A stretch of DNA of 64,000 bases from Liolophura sinensis (taxonomy: Eukaryota > Mollusca > Polyplacophora > Chitonida > Chitonidae). The position numbers and the translations under genes are program-made. Of the stretch, positions 24,001 through 52,209 are shown in pieces (the stretch's first letter is position 1; each line of letters opens with the position of its first letter). The DNA lies in the NCBI RefSeq assembly GCF_032854445.1, contig NC_088301.1, positions 58,726,512-58,790,511 of the forward strand, given 5' to 3'. Under the pieces are notes generated by a model. That model was not told where the DNA came from and ran no database searches. It saw only the letters and a program-made list of their open reading frames with translations.

Positions 24001-24303
24001 ACCCCTTTCGGAAAGGGTACAGGACGGTACGGTTTGGTTTGTTACTGTGATTATGTCGCATACTCACAACCCGTAATGTAGTCAGTGCCGGCTACCTACC
24101 TTGATGACATTTTCTTGTGCATCGCGTACTTCAGAAAGTCCAACAATGTCCTCATAAGCTTGCAAAAGGCGATTGATTTTCTCATTCGCTACAGTACTAG
24201 CTGTTGTTATGGATTTTTGATTTGCCAAATGTCTCTTAATTATACAATTTGGTGATAACCATGTGTTCATCCTTCGAAACACATGTCTACTGGTGACCGC
24301 CAT
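21082..24303 (-). CDS. CCDC51: CCDC51/MITOK-like mitochondrial inner-membrane protein, copy A
   Basis: Two coding exons on the minus strand: 24303-24100 (68 codons, GTAGGT donor) and 21942-21082 (TTGTAG acceptor, phase 0), giving 354 aa. CCDC51 is the pore-forming subunit proposed for the mitochondrial ATP-sensitive potassium channel, working with ABCB8. The N-terminus is Arg/Ser/Thr-rich and free of acidic residues for about 40 residues, as expected of a mitochondrial presequence. Next come the family motif YEDIVGLSEVRDAQ (human CCDC51 has YEEFVGLNEVREAQ), a long charged coiled coil (about residues 69-160) with the hallmark SSAVRESHERERARAERTK, a first membrane helix (about 166-185, YWSLIGSVIGATIGILGTS), a second coiled coil, and a second membrane helix near the C-terminus (about 331-350). 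Length is close to that of the human protein (411 aa). The ATG context (AAAGATGGC) is good. Copy B lies directly upstream on the same strand. The 2.2-kb intron holds a SINE remnant and a MITE-like fragment. Confidence 0.9.
22161..22240 (+). repeat. MITE-like dispersed repeat, copy 4 (left part)
   Basis: It matches the left portion of the 59.3-kb copy: CACATGTGAAAGAGCAACGTTC, then TTATTTATGCACC, then AAATTTGATTTTGGAGACAA, with the same spacing. The right half is missing. It sits in the intron of CCDC51 copy A and is followed within about 10 bp by a degenerate SINE. Confidence 0.5.
22250..22395 (-). mobile_element. Degenerate tRNA-derived SINE fragment
   Basis: Recognisable from the blocks CTCACGAATATCTCAC, CCAGCATTATGGTGG, GGAAACCGAACAGAGCC and GCATTGGTGAGAGGCTC, which match the intact copies at 29.2 and 61.7 kb. 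There is an internal deletion between the CATGCAGAC and GACTTCACAGCC blocks and the tRNA-like end is lost. It lies in the CCDC51 copy A intron and is older than the intact copies. Confidence 0.75.
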
Positions 24304-24505
24304 CTTTGTATTTTCCGAAACGGAGTATTGTCCCCTGGTCTGCCTACCACACAATATATGAAAAATAAACATTATGTAATCGTGCATTGCAGACTTCTTG
24401 TGGGCCTTAACAATGATGATCGGTGGGCTTTGAAAGGGAAACTTCCCAAAAATTAGAATAAAAAATAAACTGAATTACTCAAAAGTGCAGAAACGTGATT
24501 AATGC
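24304..24505. promoter_or_regulatory. Short spacer holding the presumed CCDC51-A promoter
   Basis: Only about 200 bp separate the copy A start codon from the poly(A) signal of copy B upstream on the same strand. The copy A promoter and 5' UTR must lie here or overlap the end of copy B. No TATA box in a convincing position was seen. The placement is inferred from spacing only. Confidence 0.35.
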
Positions 24506-24511
24506 TTTATT
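24506..24511 (-). terminator. Poly(A) signal of CCDC51 copy B
   Basis: A canonical AATAAA on the minus strand (TTTATT on the plus strand), about 400 nt after the copy B stop codon. It is the first such hexamer I see downstream, and lies just before the presumed promoter of copy A. An A/T homopolymer region at about 24711-24736 falls inside this 3' UTR. Confidence 0.5.
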
Positions 24512-24908
24512 TATAAACTGAACAGGGAAAATATATATGTCTAAATTGTGGGTATGTTTGTTCTTTTTTTCATTTGAGCAGAGTGAAGAAACTATTAAAA
24601 TATGCAAGTTGCTCAAAACCTTCAAAACAAGGTTTAGTCTGCGTGGATGATTTAATAGCTGATAAGATATGACATAACTGTAAGCAAATATACAAATATA
24701 GGAAAGTATAAAAAAAAAAAAAATAAAAAAAAAAAGATGTTACTGCCAGAGTGCATTCAATGCAAACTGTCAAGTTCATAAACATAATTGAATAAATTGA
24801 AGAAACAATATAATTACCGATATATCAATTGCATACAATTAACCAACAATGATAAACCACGTAGTACTTAAACAGTATTGTCTCAAGTTTGCCATATCAT
24901 AAAAGAAC

Positions 24909-26152
24909 TCATGTTTTTTTAAAGATGGCAAGCACAGCTGCCAAAATAAATGATACTCCAACACAAACAGCAGTGGCAGTCACTATGGATTTTGCAGAAG
25001 TCTCCTTTGTGTCAGCTTCTAGAATACTTCCATGATGTTTCACAATATCTAAGATTTCCTTGGTATGTTTTTCTGTGACAGTTGCCGAGCTGTGCGTTTT
25101 AGAATGGAGTTCACCTAACTGCTCTTCAATTCTAGTAATCTGTGCTTTTGTTTTGTGTGAATGGCTTGATTCCATTTCTCGCAACGCATTTCCCTGATCA
25201 GCTGAATCTTTTATCATTGCACGGAGTTCTTGCATTCTCCTGTAGTCATTTGCAGATGTACCAATAATACCAACAGTAGCACCAATGGCAGAGCCAATAA
25301 TAGACCAGTACCGAGTCCGTTTAGCTTTTTCTCTCTCTTTGTCATGACTAACACGCACTGCTACGGATAGCATGGCAAACTTGTCCTTTTCTGATTGCTC
25401 AGTCTGTGCTATCTGCTGTTCAAGACACCGAATCTGCCCAAGTAAGTTGCTTTCTTGTCTGAGTAGTTTTAAACATTGTTGTTCTTCATTTACTGCTTTT
25501 TCGCGTTCCTTAATGACATCCCGTAATCGTGTCTGCTTCTCATTTAACGAATGTTGCTTTGATCGCCTGTTTTCCTGCACCTCCACAAATTCTTCTTCAG
25601 CCTGCATGAATAAAACATGATCAGTTACAACTACAAATAAACCTGCTTCATTTTGTCACATTCTCAACAAACTTAATAACCTTAGTTGTTTTATGAAATG
25701 TGTACTATTTACTAATATGTGTGGCTGAATTTCAGTTTGGCAAAACTAAATACTGGTATGGTAAGTAAATCATAAAGAAACCCTGGAGGCCTTGCAAACC
25801 TACAGTATACTGTTTGTTGATTCCAGTAACACACAATGTAGCCAACAGGGCGTTGGAACTCCCTCTCCTTTTCCATCGCAGAAGGTTATGTATTAATATG
25901 TGCAGAGAAACTATGAAGAGACAATATTCAAATGACCAACCAAACCTGTATGACGTTTTCTTGTGCCACACGTACTTCGGAAACACCAACAATATCTTCG
26001 TAAACTTGAAGTATTCGACTAGCTTTGCGATTACTATATGTTTTAACTTTAGCCTGTAGTTTGCCACGACAAAACAAGTGCCTATGAACACTATAACTGG
26101 GCTGCAAATTTGTACAAATCTCGCGCCGCAAACGCCGATTGGCTGTCGCCAT
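24909..26152 (-). CDS. CCDC51: CCDC51/MITOK-like mitochondrial inner-membrane protein, copy B (shortened)
   Basis: Two coding exons: 26152-25946 (69 codons, ending at CATACAG before GTTTGG) and 25601-24909 (TTCATGCAG acceptor), together 299 aa. The exon structure and the phase-0 intron position are the same as in copy A, so this is a tandem duplicate. Shared features: an Arg-rich presequence-like N-terminus, YEDIVGVSEVRVAQENVI, a coiled coil, AKRTRYWSIIGSAIGATVG with the first membrane helix, the block TKEILDIV, and a C-terminal membrane helix (SIVTATAVCVGVSFILAAVL). Compared with copy A it lacks about 17 residues before TKEILDIV and about 30-40 residues just before the second helix, and pairwise divergence is considerable. 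Both helices and the coiled coil remain, so it is probably functional. It lies 5' of copy A on the same strand and diverges from PARP3. Confidence 0.88.
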
Positions 26153-47080: not shown

Positions 47081-48609
47081 ATGCCACACACAGGTAAGTG
47101 TCGTATCTCAGTAATGTTTAATCATTAACATAGAAAAATGGTCACACTTAACCACTGAAATGCAGCCTCTTTTTTGTTCTAACTATATTAACGTAAATGC
47201 TTATATTTAATAGCAACTTATACCTCCCCTAGTACCACAACTTAAGTAGGATTAGGTGAAAAAGATGTAGTATCGTTAATTGCAACTTTTTACACGTCAA
47301 TAGTCTAGAATTACTGAAGAGAGTGTGTTGATATAACATTTACTAAATTAACGGTATAACATGAAAATAACAATTAAAGCAAAGGGACCAAACCTGAGTC
47401 CAACCAACAGAATCAAAGTTTATGAAGGCAGACAATATAAAAAAACTACATCGTGAAGATTATAACTGGATCAACAACAACACCAACCTGATAGTTAACG
47501 AATGGTCACACGTATAATGGATGAAATCTGACCTCATTAATTACTCTTTTACATGGGTATATTTTAAATGTTCATGATGTAATGTAGCAACATACACACT
47601 CCCTGGTGTACAATAATAGTATACAACGACATATTTATGTTTCTGTTGACAATTTGCGAACATTACATGATTGACGGGTAGGTGGGGTGGGGGAGGGGGT
47701 CAAATTCTGATTGTCTTCCAGATAAATCTGTCCTACACATGATGTACTTAATATACATGCCTTAAATGAGAACATTTCTGTAAATCCATACATTTTGTTT
47801 ATTATATTTCTTGGCAAAAAAAAAAACATAAACTGATTATGTATCAGTTAATATCACCCTGCGTGACTGATCACGTGTAAATTTTGGTTTTTGGCAAATG
47901 GCGCAAAAGTAAGAAAATGTACTTTTTAAAATATATTATTTAATACAAAAAATTGGGAGTAAATTATTGATGAGCAGGGCCACCTAAACTGGAGAAGGGT
48001 TTGATCACTCACGACAGTGTAGGAATATAGGCATAATACGTGATTCGGATATCTGCTGTAAAGATTATATAAATATAAAGACTACAACGTAGGGAGTAAA
48101 TCTTGAGCAGCGACGAAAGTGTGATAATTGGCATATGGTTGCACGTAACCGGATAATAGCAGGTAAAAAGGTTTATTGAAAACACGCATTTTCTTTTCTC
48201 ATAGGTCTATATTGGTTCAGACTTGTTATCATGCACAGGTTCTGATTGCAATGTTCCAGTTCTGATGCAAAGTGTGACCATTTACCAGGACTCCGTTGGT
48301 GGAATAAGCATCACAAAGGCCTTGGTTAATGTGCAATGTTTTAAAGCTGGGGAAAACATAAAAAAAATTAGTTATAAATATTATAAATTGGCAATATATA
48401 TAAATATTTTTTTCGATTTGTCTTTCAAGAGAAGAAACACTTGTAAACAATTTCGAATGCTGGGTATTAGGGCCCACCTTTTGGTATACATTGCCTTTTG
48501 CGTAATAATTTTATAGATGAGGATGTAACACATGTTTAATAAATATATATTTGCACTAGAAATTGGTCTCTTCATCTAACAAATGTGTTCAACCTGGATT
48601 TTGATCATA

Positions 48610-48666
<57 letters not shown>

Positions 48667-51600
48667 CATAAATGTTATTATAATTCAAATTAAATGCATG
48701 TATTTTAATATAACATTAACGTTAACATTACTGCATTTTTTTTACCTAATTCAGCTATAGCGAATTGTTCTGTGTAAACGCCGTTTCAGCATCGTCACTT
48801 ATTTTTAACGACTTTTAAAGGCAAATCGCTAATGCCGAGGGGCACACAGGTTTCCTTGTTCCCAGCATGAACATACGTGAGCCAAAAACATATTGGAGGG
48901 CACTCAGGCTTTTTATACAAGCAGCCGTGGTTAGGAACGTCCTTGTTATAAAGACGTAAATCTAAATGTTATGGGCTAAGACAAATTTCCAACACAAAAA
49001 CATTCAACACAGACCTAAGGAAGTATATTAAGTTAGAAATTAGGACGGATTCGCGGAAAGAAAGGCTGTCATCTATTAAATTTGACTTAAGTTTGAATGC
49101 AGATCATACCAATAGTTTTCGTTTTAAATATTTCAATTCACCTAACTTACACATGTATATAAGGTTAACAGGGGCGATCTCGTGAATGTCTGAATGTGAA
49201 AACAGTGCTGCCTTAGTTGCTATTTAATATACCTCACTGGTCTAGAATTCCTCAAATTACTTGGTTGTCATCACATTATAACAATATAAAGGCACCAGGT
49301 CTCAAGGTTATATAGTCCAACAGCAGAATCCTGGTTTATGCTGGAATACAAGATAACAGACTACAAAACAGAAAGTGAAACCAGAGCAGCGACTACAGTG
49401 TAATAGTTCGCAAATGTTGGCAAAAGGCTGCGCCTACCTTTCCACATTTCAGTCATCACAACGATAAGCAGTTGGATGAGAATGAATGCACTAAATGATT
49501 ATTTGTCATTAATCTGTTATTTCTTCACATATATGTGATTACATCTGCGAGAGTACAGTTGGTTTGTGGTGAGGTTTGGGTTATCAACTATGGGAATGCA
49601 TAGTGTTGGGTGTTCTAAATGGTGCTTAGTCAACCACTTCCAGACGAAAAAAGACCATAAAACCTGAACCGCGAAGTGAAGTGAAAGTGTATGTCGAATG
49701 ATCATGTTTGACAGCGTTATCCGAAACCAAAAACTAATAATTTCCCTTTTATTAGTGATCTCCGATTGTTTTGTGTTATTTCAGGTCAAACTGGCGTTAA
49801 TCAGTTGGGAGGGATATTCGTGAACGGCAGACCTCTTCCGGATCATGTGCGCAGGCGCATTGTTGAGCTGGCTCAGATGGGAGTCAGGCCGTGTGACATA
49901 TCACGGCAGCTTTTGGTGTCCCATGGATGTGTTAGTAAGATACTCACACGATATTACGAAACTGGTTCCATCAAACCAGGCTCCATTGGCGGAAGTAAAC
50001 CAAAGGTAAGTCGGTCTGTATTGCACACAAGCCGCCTACTTGTCTAATAACCCTTCTGCATGACAAACGGAAATGTGTAGTAAATGTGTACATTAATAAA
50101 TTAAGATAATACCTAAAGTGTTTTCCGTTTGTGCATTCTCTCGTTACTGCAGTTTATGGAGGATTGAAACTTAATCTTTAATAATGTCTTATGTTGATAC
50201 TGATACAGTGAACAGAGAATTTTTAGAATTTCAGAATTTTCAGAATTTTAGGTATATTAATATTGAAGATGGGAATATTTTAATATTTGCCTCATCGATG
50301 TTATGATTGTTTGTTGTTGCTGTTGTTTTCCTGTGATTAGTGGTGTTTCCATATCTGTTCTCGGTATTTACCATACTGGGATTAGTTCAGGTCACTGTTA
50401 TGTAATTCAACCGTGTCACCTGCAGTCAGCGTATATTCTTATACGACTTCTTTTTTCTTAAATTTCTATAGGTAAACAGATCTATCCCGCCTGTTAATAC
50501 GCAGGTGGCAACTCCACTAGTTGTACGAAAAATTCTTCGGTACAAACAGGAGAACCCGGCGATATTTGCTTGGGAGATTCGTGATCAACTCTTATCTCAG
50601 AGAGTATGTGATGACCAGACCGTTCCAAGCATCAGTTCCATTAACAGAATACTGCGAAACTGCGGCGTCTTGCCTTTCAACACACCAGACCTCAATTCTC
50701 CGCCAGGTGGAACCATACCGGCTTCAATTCCGGCGAATCATTGCCAGCCACTGAATCATCTCATGTCTGGCTTCACAGCCAGTAAGACGCACCTGCCGAT
50801 AGGGGGAGCAGTGATTTCGATGAGTGTACCAGGGTTATCTTATCCCGCGCTAGTTACACCACTGCCGACGGAAGACACAACGTCTGACAAAAGTAGCGAC
50901 GAGAATGGGCGTGAAAAGCTAAAACGAAAAGCGGACACAACAAATGGTAATAACATGTTTGAATACGTAATTTTCCTATATACAAAACAATAGAGTAGAA
51001 AAGAGTCTTAATATGTCATATGAAACAACATTGAAAAGAATTCAGCGTGGACAATTACACTATATACATGCATATAAATGTCTTTCCTATGTATAATGAA
51101 TTTCTCTCCAGTACTTCAGTGGATGTTTTAACACTTACATTGATACCAATGAACTGAAGTTATGGTTAGAATTTTCCAACTCTATGGCAAATAAAAAAGG
51201 TTTCCCCAAGTTTGCCTTAGCCATTAAAAGATTATCGCTTTTTTCTTAAGAAGGTCTACCATTTAGTTGCCCCCCCCCCCCCCAAGAGCCAGTGAATGTT
51301 TGGTCCGAGCGAAACACATTTCAACATTAATCAATCATTTACAACATCTCTTAAGAATACATCCCATAAAGCGACTCTTTATAGTTCACGCAACCTGAAT
51401 GTTGGGCTAGCTGTGCGGTGGCCTGTTGTGGCCGGCCTCACGCGATCACGGGCGGGCAGGTGGTTTACTGGGGCTACCGAGACAAGCCCTTCCTGTGACG
51501 GGAAGCTACGCCTATCCTCTCTACCAAACGCGGAATAATTTCCCCTCTCTCCGTCTCGCCATTGCGTTAATAATTAATTGCAGACCACATGAAATTACCA

Positions 51601-52209
51601 CTATATTGTCTGTGTTGATAGGTTTGCTGTGCTTCCCATTAAATCGGCGGCCCGAACAGTAACAACACATTTGTCGGTGAAGGAAACAAAGAAATTGTCT
51701 CAGGAATTCAGACCTCTCAAGTTCTTCCTAGTTCGTCTTTGTCCTGACACCTGTCCGAAGACCTTCGCAATTAAGCTTTATCTAATACAAAATTGATATG
51801 CACATTTGAATTATTTCATTCTTGTCTTCCTTCATTTTCAGATTATTTGAGGGAAGCTACCGTTATTACCAGCATGTGTGGGCCTCAGAATAACGCGTGC
51901 CGATCACGTGACAGTGCTGACAACAAACAGGAAAAACCATGGGTGTTTGCTAAGCAACAGAGAGTTTGGGAAAGCCAGAGTTTTTCCCCAGTTCACGCAC
52001 AGCCAGAAGTTAACGTTAATAGCTACTGTTACCTGAGCATGTGCGGTTATCCACAAATCTTCCTCCCGGGAATCTATCCTTTCACCGCGGCGATGATGTC
52101 CTCCATAATGCCTGGTCGAATTCCGATGACGTCGCTCGCTCCAAAAGTTTCTCTTCAATCAAATACAAATAGTGTTGTTTCCATGGATACTGACGTGCGG
52201 AAAAAGTAA
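47081..52209 (+). CDS. PoxN: Pox neuro-type paired-domain transcription factor
   Basis: Four coding exons: 47081-47093, 49785-50005, 50472-50946 (or from 50505) and 51842-52209. They total 1077 nt, or 358 aa, with phases 1, 0 and 1 all consistent. Pax proteins are nuclear DNA-binding regulators; in flies PoxN specifies poly-innervated sense organs and some brain and appendage structures. The start MPHTGQ.GVNQLGG matches fly Pox neuro, including a first coding exon of only 13 nt. The PAI half (about 5-78) has [18 protein letters not shown] and [16 protein letters not shown]; the RED half (about 90-143) has [10 protein letters not shown] and [14 protein letters not shown]. The combination [31 protein letters not shown] and [13 protein letters not shown] fits PoxN better than Pax2/5/8 or Pax6. 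No homeodomain and no clear octapeptide are present. The C-terminal 215 residues are Pro/Ser/Thr-rich with a basic patch (KLKRKAD). Between the halves, 11 residues are encoded at 50472-50504 that Pax proteins known to me lack. Confidence 0.93.
48100..48345. repeat. Mosaic repeat, module D (reverse) and module C (forward), copy 3
   Basis: 48100-48160 reads as reversed module D (AGTGTGATAATTGGCATATG; GCACGTAACCGG). 48225-48345 is forward module C (ACCAGGACTCCGTTGGTGGA; TAAGCATCACAAAGGCC). Both lie in PoxN's first intron. The head-to-head arrangement is another sign of rearrangement within this repeat family. Confidence 0.55.
48613..48662 (+). repeat. (TA)n microsatellite
   Basis: About 25 uninterrupted TA/AT dinucleotides in PoxN's first intron. 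It is probably length-polymorphic and a likely site of assembly error. Confidence 0.95.
48832..49065 (+). repeat. Mosaic repeat, module E copy 2
   Basis: It aligns with 37558-37775: GGGCACACAGGTTTCCTTGT, CCCAGCATGAACATACGTGA, AAGCAGCCGTGGTTAGGAAC and CTAAGGAAGTATATTAAG. The alignment resumes near 49157 (AAGGTTAACAGGGGCGATCT against AAGGTTAACAGGAGCGAGCT at 37890). It lies in the first intron of PoxN. Confidence 0.75.
49245..49430 (-). repeat. Mosaic repeat, modules D and C in reverse, copy 4
   Basis: On the minus strand it reads D (AACATTTGCGAACTATTACA region) then C (CAGCATAAACCAGGATTCTG, later GAGACCTGGTGCC and AATTCTAGACCA), matching the D-C order of the forward copy at 40530-40860. It lies about 350 bp upstream of PoxN's main paired-domain exon. 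Confidence 0.65.
51270..51283 (+). repeat. Poly(C) run
   Basis: Fourteen consecutive C in PoxN's third intron. The exact length is uncertain in any assembly. Confidence 0.9.
51390..51570. promoter_or_regulatory. GC-rich island in PoxN intron 3, possible enhancer
   Basis: A compact GC-rich stretch (GTGGCCGGCCTCACGCGATC; TTCCTGTGACGGGAAGC) sits in an AT-rich intron and is followed by a homeodomain-type TTAATAATTAATTGC. There is no splice-compatible ORF. A regulatory role is inferred from composition and location only. Confidence 0.25.

Follow-up and report, generated by a model that had tools for sequence, protein, structure and literature searches.

The PoxN locus

The window analysed here, a stretch of 64,000 nucleotides, is part of contig C7 of the 609-Mb Liolophura sinensis genome and contains a PoxN gene on the + strand. 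This chiton assembly (632 scaffolds, longest 96,433,062, N50 37,343,639) was first published as Liolophura japonica (PMC11068029) and its species name was later corrected to L. sinensis (PMC12441733). The features of the locus are collected in Table 1. The end of exon 1 reads ATGCCACACACAG/GTAAGT and its join to exon 2, which follows the acceptor ATTTCAG at 49784, keeps the frame. Exon 2 ends in a strong donor (CCAAAG/GTAAGT at 50005/50006) and the 3' end of exon 3 (donor ATG/GTAATA) is tentative. Beyond exon 3, on its 3' side, lies a long open frame at 51775-52206 that may be a 3' PoxN exon.

Table 1. Features of the chiton PoxN gene, numbered from the first nucleotide of the window.
Feature	Position	Strand	Content and basis
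PoxN coding exon 1	47081..47093	+	MPHT and first base of Gly codon (phase 1)
PoxN exon 2	49785..50005	+	PAI subdomain to GGSKPK; Pfam PAX match of joined protein and genome family search
Tribasic RRR codons, helix 1 of PAI	49850..49858	+	Read from sequence; signature described in PMC5333810
Intron 2, if the upstream acceptor is used	50006..50471	+	466 nt; pyrimidine tract, yUnAy branch candidate (A at 50441)
33-nt insert, 11 residues	50472..50504	+	Last codon CAG at 50502-50504, its AG being the downstream acceptor
Remainder of exon 3: RED (VATP...RILRN) and region after the paired domain	50505..50946	+	Pfam PAX match, PDB alignments, translation
Match to the molluscan PoxN motif, C-terminal to the paired domain	50826..50855	+	[VI]PGLSYP[KR][IL]V, one mismatch

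With either of two possible acceptors for exon 3 the joined protein gives a full-length Pfam PAX match (1-125), so that both the PAI and the RED subdomain are complete, and the paired domain also aligns with the structures of Pax5, Pax8, Pax6 and Prd. A 2017 survey of PoxN genes describes as hallmarks a tribasic helix 1 and, in Mollusca, the motif [VI]PGLSYP[KR][IL]V after the paired domain (PMC5333810). The chiton protein carries the tribasic signal in helix 1 of its paired domain (HVRRRIVE, within a 10-residue stretch from 49844), and after the domain nine of ten positions fit the molluscan motif, with A replacing K/R. A phase-0 intron lies directly after KPK, that is at the KPK(Q)VAT junction. 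By its signature motifs (RRR, VPGLSYP) the gene is PoxN as judged from sequence, and the identification made in the original prediction is upheld by these motifs together with the intron after KPK. The homeodomain motif WFxNRR was found in no frame of the window, where an intron could split one.

A probable 11-residue insert between PAI and RED

The sequence across the beginning of exon 3 reads ...CGACTTCTTTTTTCTTAAATTTCTATAG/GTAAACAGATCTATCCCGCCTGTTAATACGCAG/GTGGCAACTCCA..., in which the slashes mark two candidate 3' splice sites. Of their AGs, the upstream one ends at 50471 and the downstream one at 50504. Between them lie 33 nt that code for 11 residues, which would stand between GGSKPK and VATP, in the linker that joins PAI to RED; the frame is kept with either acceptor after the exon 2 donor. 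In alignments with the solved paired domains of Pax5, Pax8, Pax6 and Prd the gap corresponds to exactly these 11 residues. Coordinates, frame and structure alignment thus bear out the original prediction of an insert at this position, as well as its observation that a second in-frame AG, 33 nt further down, would remove the insert. The downstream form would restore exactly the canonical linker.

A third AG at 50479, between the two acceptors, is out of frame. The AGs at 50425 and 50429 were ruled out as acceptors, since a stop codon in frame (TAG, 50469-50471) separates them from the coding frame. We also dropped the open frame of the insert as an argument: 47% of local non-coding stretches of 33 nt, about half, are open in a given frame, which makes an open frame weak evidence. 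The site is single copy: the assembly yielded no further copy, haplotype or retrocopy. A search of viral contigs returned no relatives.

Linker length in other Pax proteins

The other intact Pax linkers of the genome follow the pattern GGSKP[KR]V[AT]TP; their junction has neither an insert nor an intron. This comparison covered Pax6, two Pax1/9, two Pax2/5/8, Pax3/7, one Pax-beta-like and one eyegone-like linker, all named by sequence resemblance. The assumption of a fixed linker length in paired domains, from which the original prediction had started, is wrong. PoxN of gastropods, bivalves, cephalopods and annelids has been reported to carry insertions at this same exon 2/exon 3 junction (PMC5333810), and Pax3 and Pax7 exist as Q+/Q- isoforms, in which the mouse genes have one Gln in or out via alternative acceptors at intron 2/exon 3 (PMC5852603, PMC10415112). 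The presence of this Gln has been reported to affect DNA binding of Pax3 (PMC1657060, PMC5852603). The main text of the PoxN survey gives its insertions without lengths and some of them may be a single Gln only; its sequence set includes a transcriptome-derived Mytilus PoxN (PMC5333810).

Several other Pax loci were seen in the course of this comparison. Two Pax3/7-like genes, L015:1560-2730 (G000:C9:29265559-29266729, +) and L009:932-1740 (G000:C9:23604631-23605439, +), have a PAI subdomain and, after an unrelated spacer, a Pax-type homeodomain (WFSNRR); motif search identified the homeodomain and recognised no RED. L015 lies about 13 kb from the intact Pax3/7 gene L014, on the opposite strand. 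The Pax1/9-like genes L003 and L004 (G000:C6:11589510-11641390) are neighbours about 50 kb apart, as are the Pax2/5/8-like genes L010 and L011 (G000:C1:4467982-4519550), which suggests local duplications in the chiton.

Predicted use of the two acceptors

Acceptors were scored with a position matrix spanning -20 to +3. Its training set was small, 24 acceptors from the chiton genome: those of 23 PRPF8 introns, fixed against solved PRPF8 sequences, and that of PoxN intron 1. For comparison, 1109 decoy AGs were used. Held-out true acceptors scored between -3.8 and 13.7 bits. The upstream acceptor reached 8.1 bits, the 50th percentile and thus the median of the true sites, a score matched by 1.4% of the decoys, whereas the downstream acceptor reached 1.7 bits, the 8th percentile of true sites, with 14% of the decoys scoring as well. 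In 2% of bootstrap replicates (P 0.02) the downstream acceptor equalled or exceeded the upstream one. Branch sites were searched as yUnAy at 12-45 nt upstream of an acceptor with no AG in between; such a candidate was present at 15 of 23 true sites versus 12% of decoys. For the upstream acceptor a qualifying candidate lies at 30 nt with no AG between, and for the downstream acceptor there is none in the 12-45 nt range. Acceptor calls of this kind can err, as a better-scoring AG was present within 60 nt in 4 of the 23 PRPF8 introns. One PRPF8 intron (L027, G000:C10; reverse-strand 24020-25766 of joined L026-L029) contains a tandem array with a unit of about 50 nt, visible as repeated overlapping open frames.

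Because the upstream acceptor is typical and the downstream one is weak and without a branch candidate, the form with the insert is probably the main product. The splice-site prediction in this way favours the earlier argument that the stronger upstream acceptor makes the insert form likelier. The second AG had also been taken as a sign of alternative splicing. This AG ends a CAG codon that stands immediately before GTG GCA ACT (VAT), and Drosophila PoxN is given as KPKQVAT at the exon junction (PMC5333810). The chiton codon would align with the Drosophila Gln, at a single alignment position, so that alternative splicing would not be needed to account for the AG, which is thereby a weak sign of it.

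These observations bear on the use of both acceptors, which would yield PoxN isoforms with long and with canonical linkers, perhaps regulated by tissue in the manner of Pax3/Pax7 Q+/Q-. In its favour, each AG keeps the frame, use of the downstream one gives exactly the canonical linker, and tandem acceptors have a precedent in the same linker of Pax3 and Pax7 (PMC5852603, PMC10415112, PMC1657060). We nonetheless consider such dual use unlikely: the downstream acceptor, besides its low score and missing branch candidate, is preceded by two AGs within 33 nt, its own AG is accounted for by the Gln codon, and an in-frame AG is often found in the 60 nt that follow an acceptor (14 of the 23 PRPF8 exons). 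That the choice between acceptors 33 nt apart is regulated, so that long and canonical linkers would provide two DNA-binding modes from one gene, appears very improbable. Equally hard to credit is the exclusive use of the downstream acceptor, which would make the 33 nt intronic and the linker an ordinary KPKVATP: the other intact Pax linkers of the genome and every solved paired domain found are canonical at this point, but acceptor strength and branch-site evidence point the other way, a typical strong site would have to be skipped and insertions are reported here for lophotrochozoan PoxN (PMC5333810).

A possible longer tether between the two halves of the paired domain

We thus regard it as likely that exon 3 of chiton PoxN begins 33 nt before the canonical junction, with the acceptor at 50471 mainly used and the insert present in the protein. 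Against this reading, the form with the downstream acceptor has exactly the canonical linker and outscores the insert form by 16 bits on the Pax profile. The spliceosome would mainly take this acceptor and so keep the insert, which would consist of ten extra residues and the Gln also found in Drosophila PoxN at the same spot. On this view ten codons would have been added to the exon on its upstream side, ahead of a Gln that was already there, whose AG would need no role in splicing. In an AlphaFold2 model of the exon 3 start (insert and RED only) the RED helices are ordered and the insert is disordered, with a mean pLDDT of about 45 over its first ten residues and helix 4 beginning at the P of VATP. 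The modelled insert is probably flexible. It would then make the PAI-RED tether longer and probably loosen the coupling of the two halves on DNA, and an effect on groove spacing, as originally proposed, is plausible.

Compared with the lophotrochozoan PoxN genes of the survey (PMC5333810), the chiton gene has its probable insert at the same exon 2/exon 3 junction, shares the tribasic helix 1 and fits the motif after the domain at nine of ten positions; it differs in its chiton source and in the A for K/R of that motif. With vertebrate Pax3/Pax7 Q+/Q- it has in common that extra residues in the same PAI-RED linker derive from an intron 2/exon 3 acceptor, but there a single Gln is concerned, alternative splicing is proven and the effect on binding has been measured for Pax3, whereas chiton PoxN, of another Pax class, would have 11 residues that are probably constitutive. 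Short splicing-derived insertions into the paired domain are likewise seen in Pax6(5a), Pax8 and Pax7 GL+, with functional effects in those three; these fall inside PAI or RED, unlike the chiton insert in the linker.

As linker insertions are already reported for lophotrochozoan PoxN, the chiton gene is probably a new example and not a new phenomenon. It would extend to chitons a trait that has been reported for lophotrochozoan PoxN but studied very little, the presence of extra linker residues, and is on its own a modest case. The Pax6 linker is described as contacting the minor groove, and mutations in the PAX6 linker are reported to alter binding in a site-dependent way. Since the linker of Pax6 makes this contact and a single Gln alters DNA binding of Pax3, molluscan PoxN would offer a natural test of how far PAI and RED can part and yet act together.
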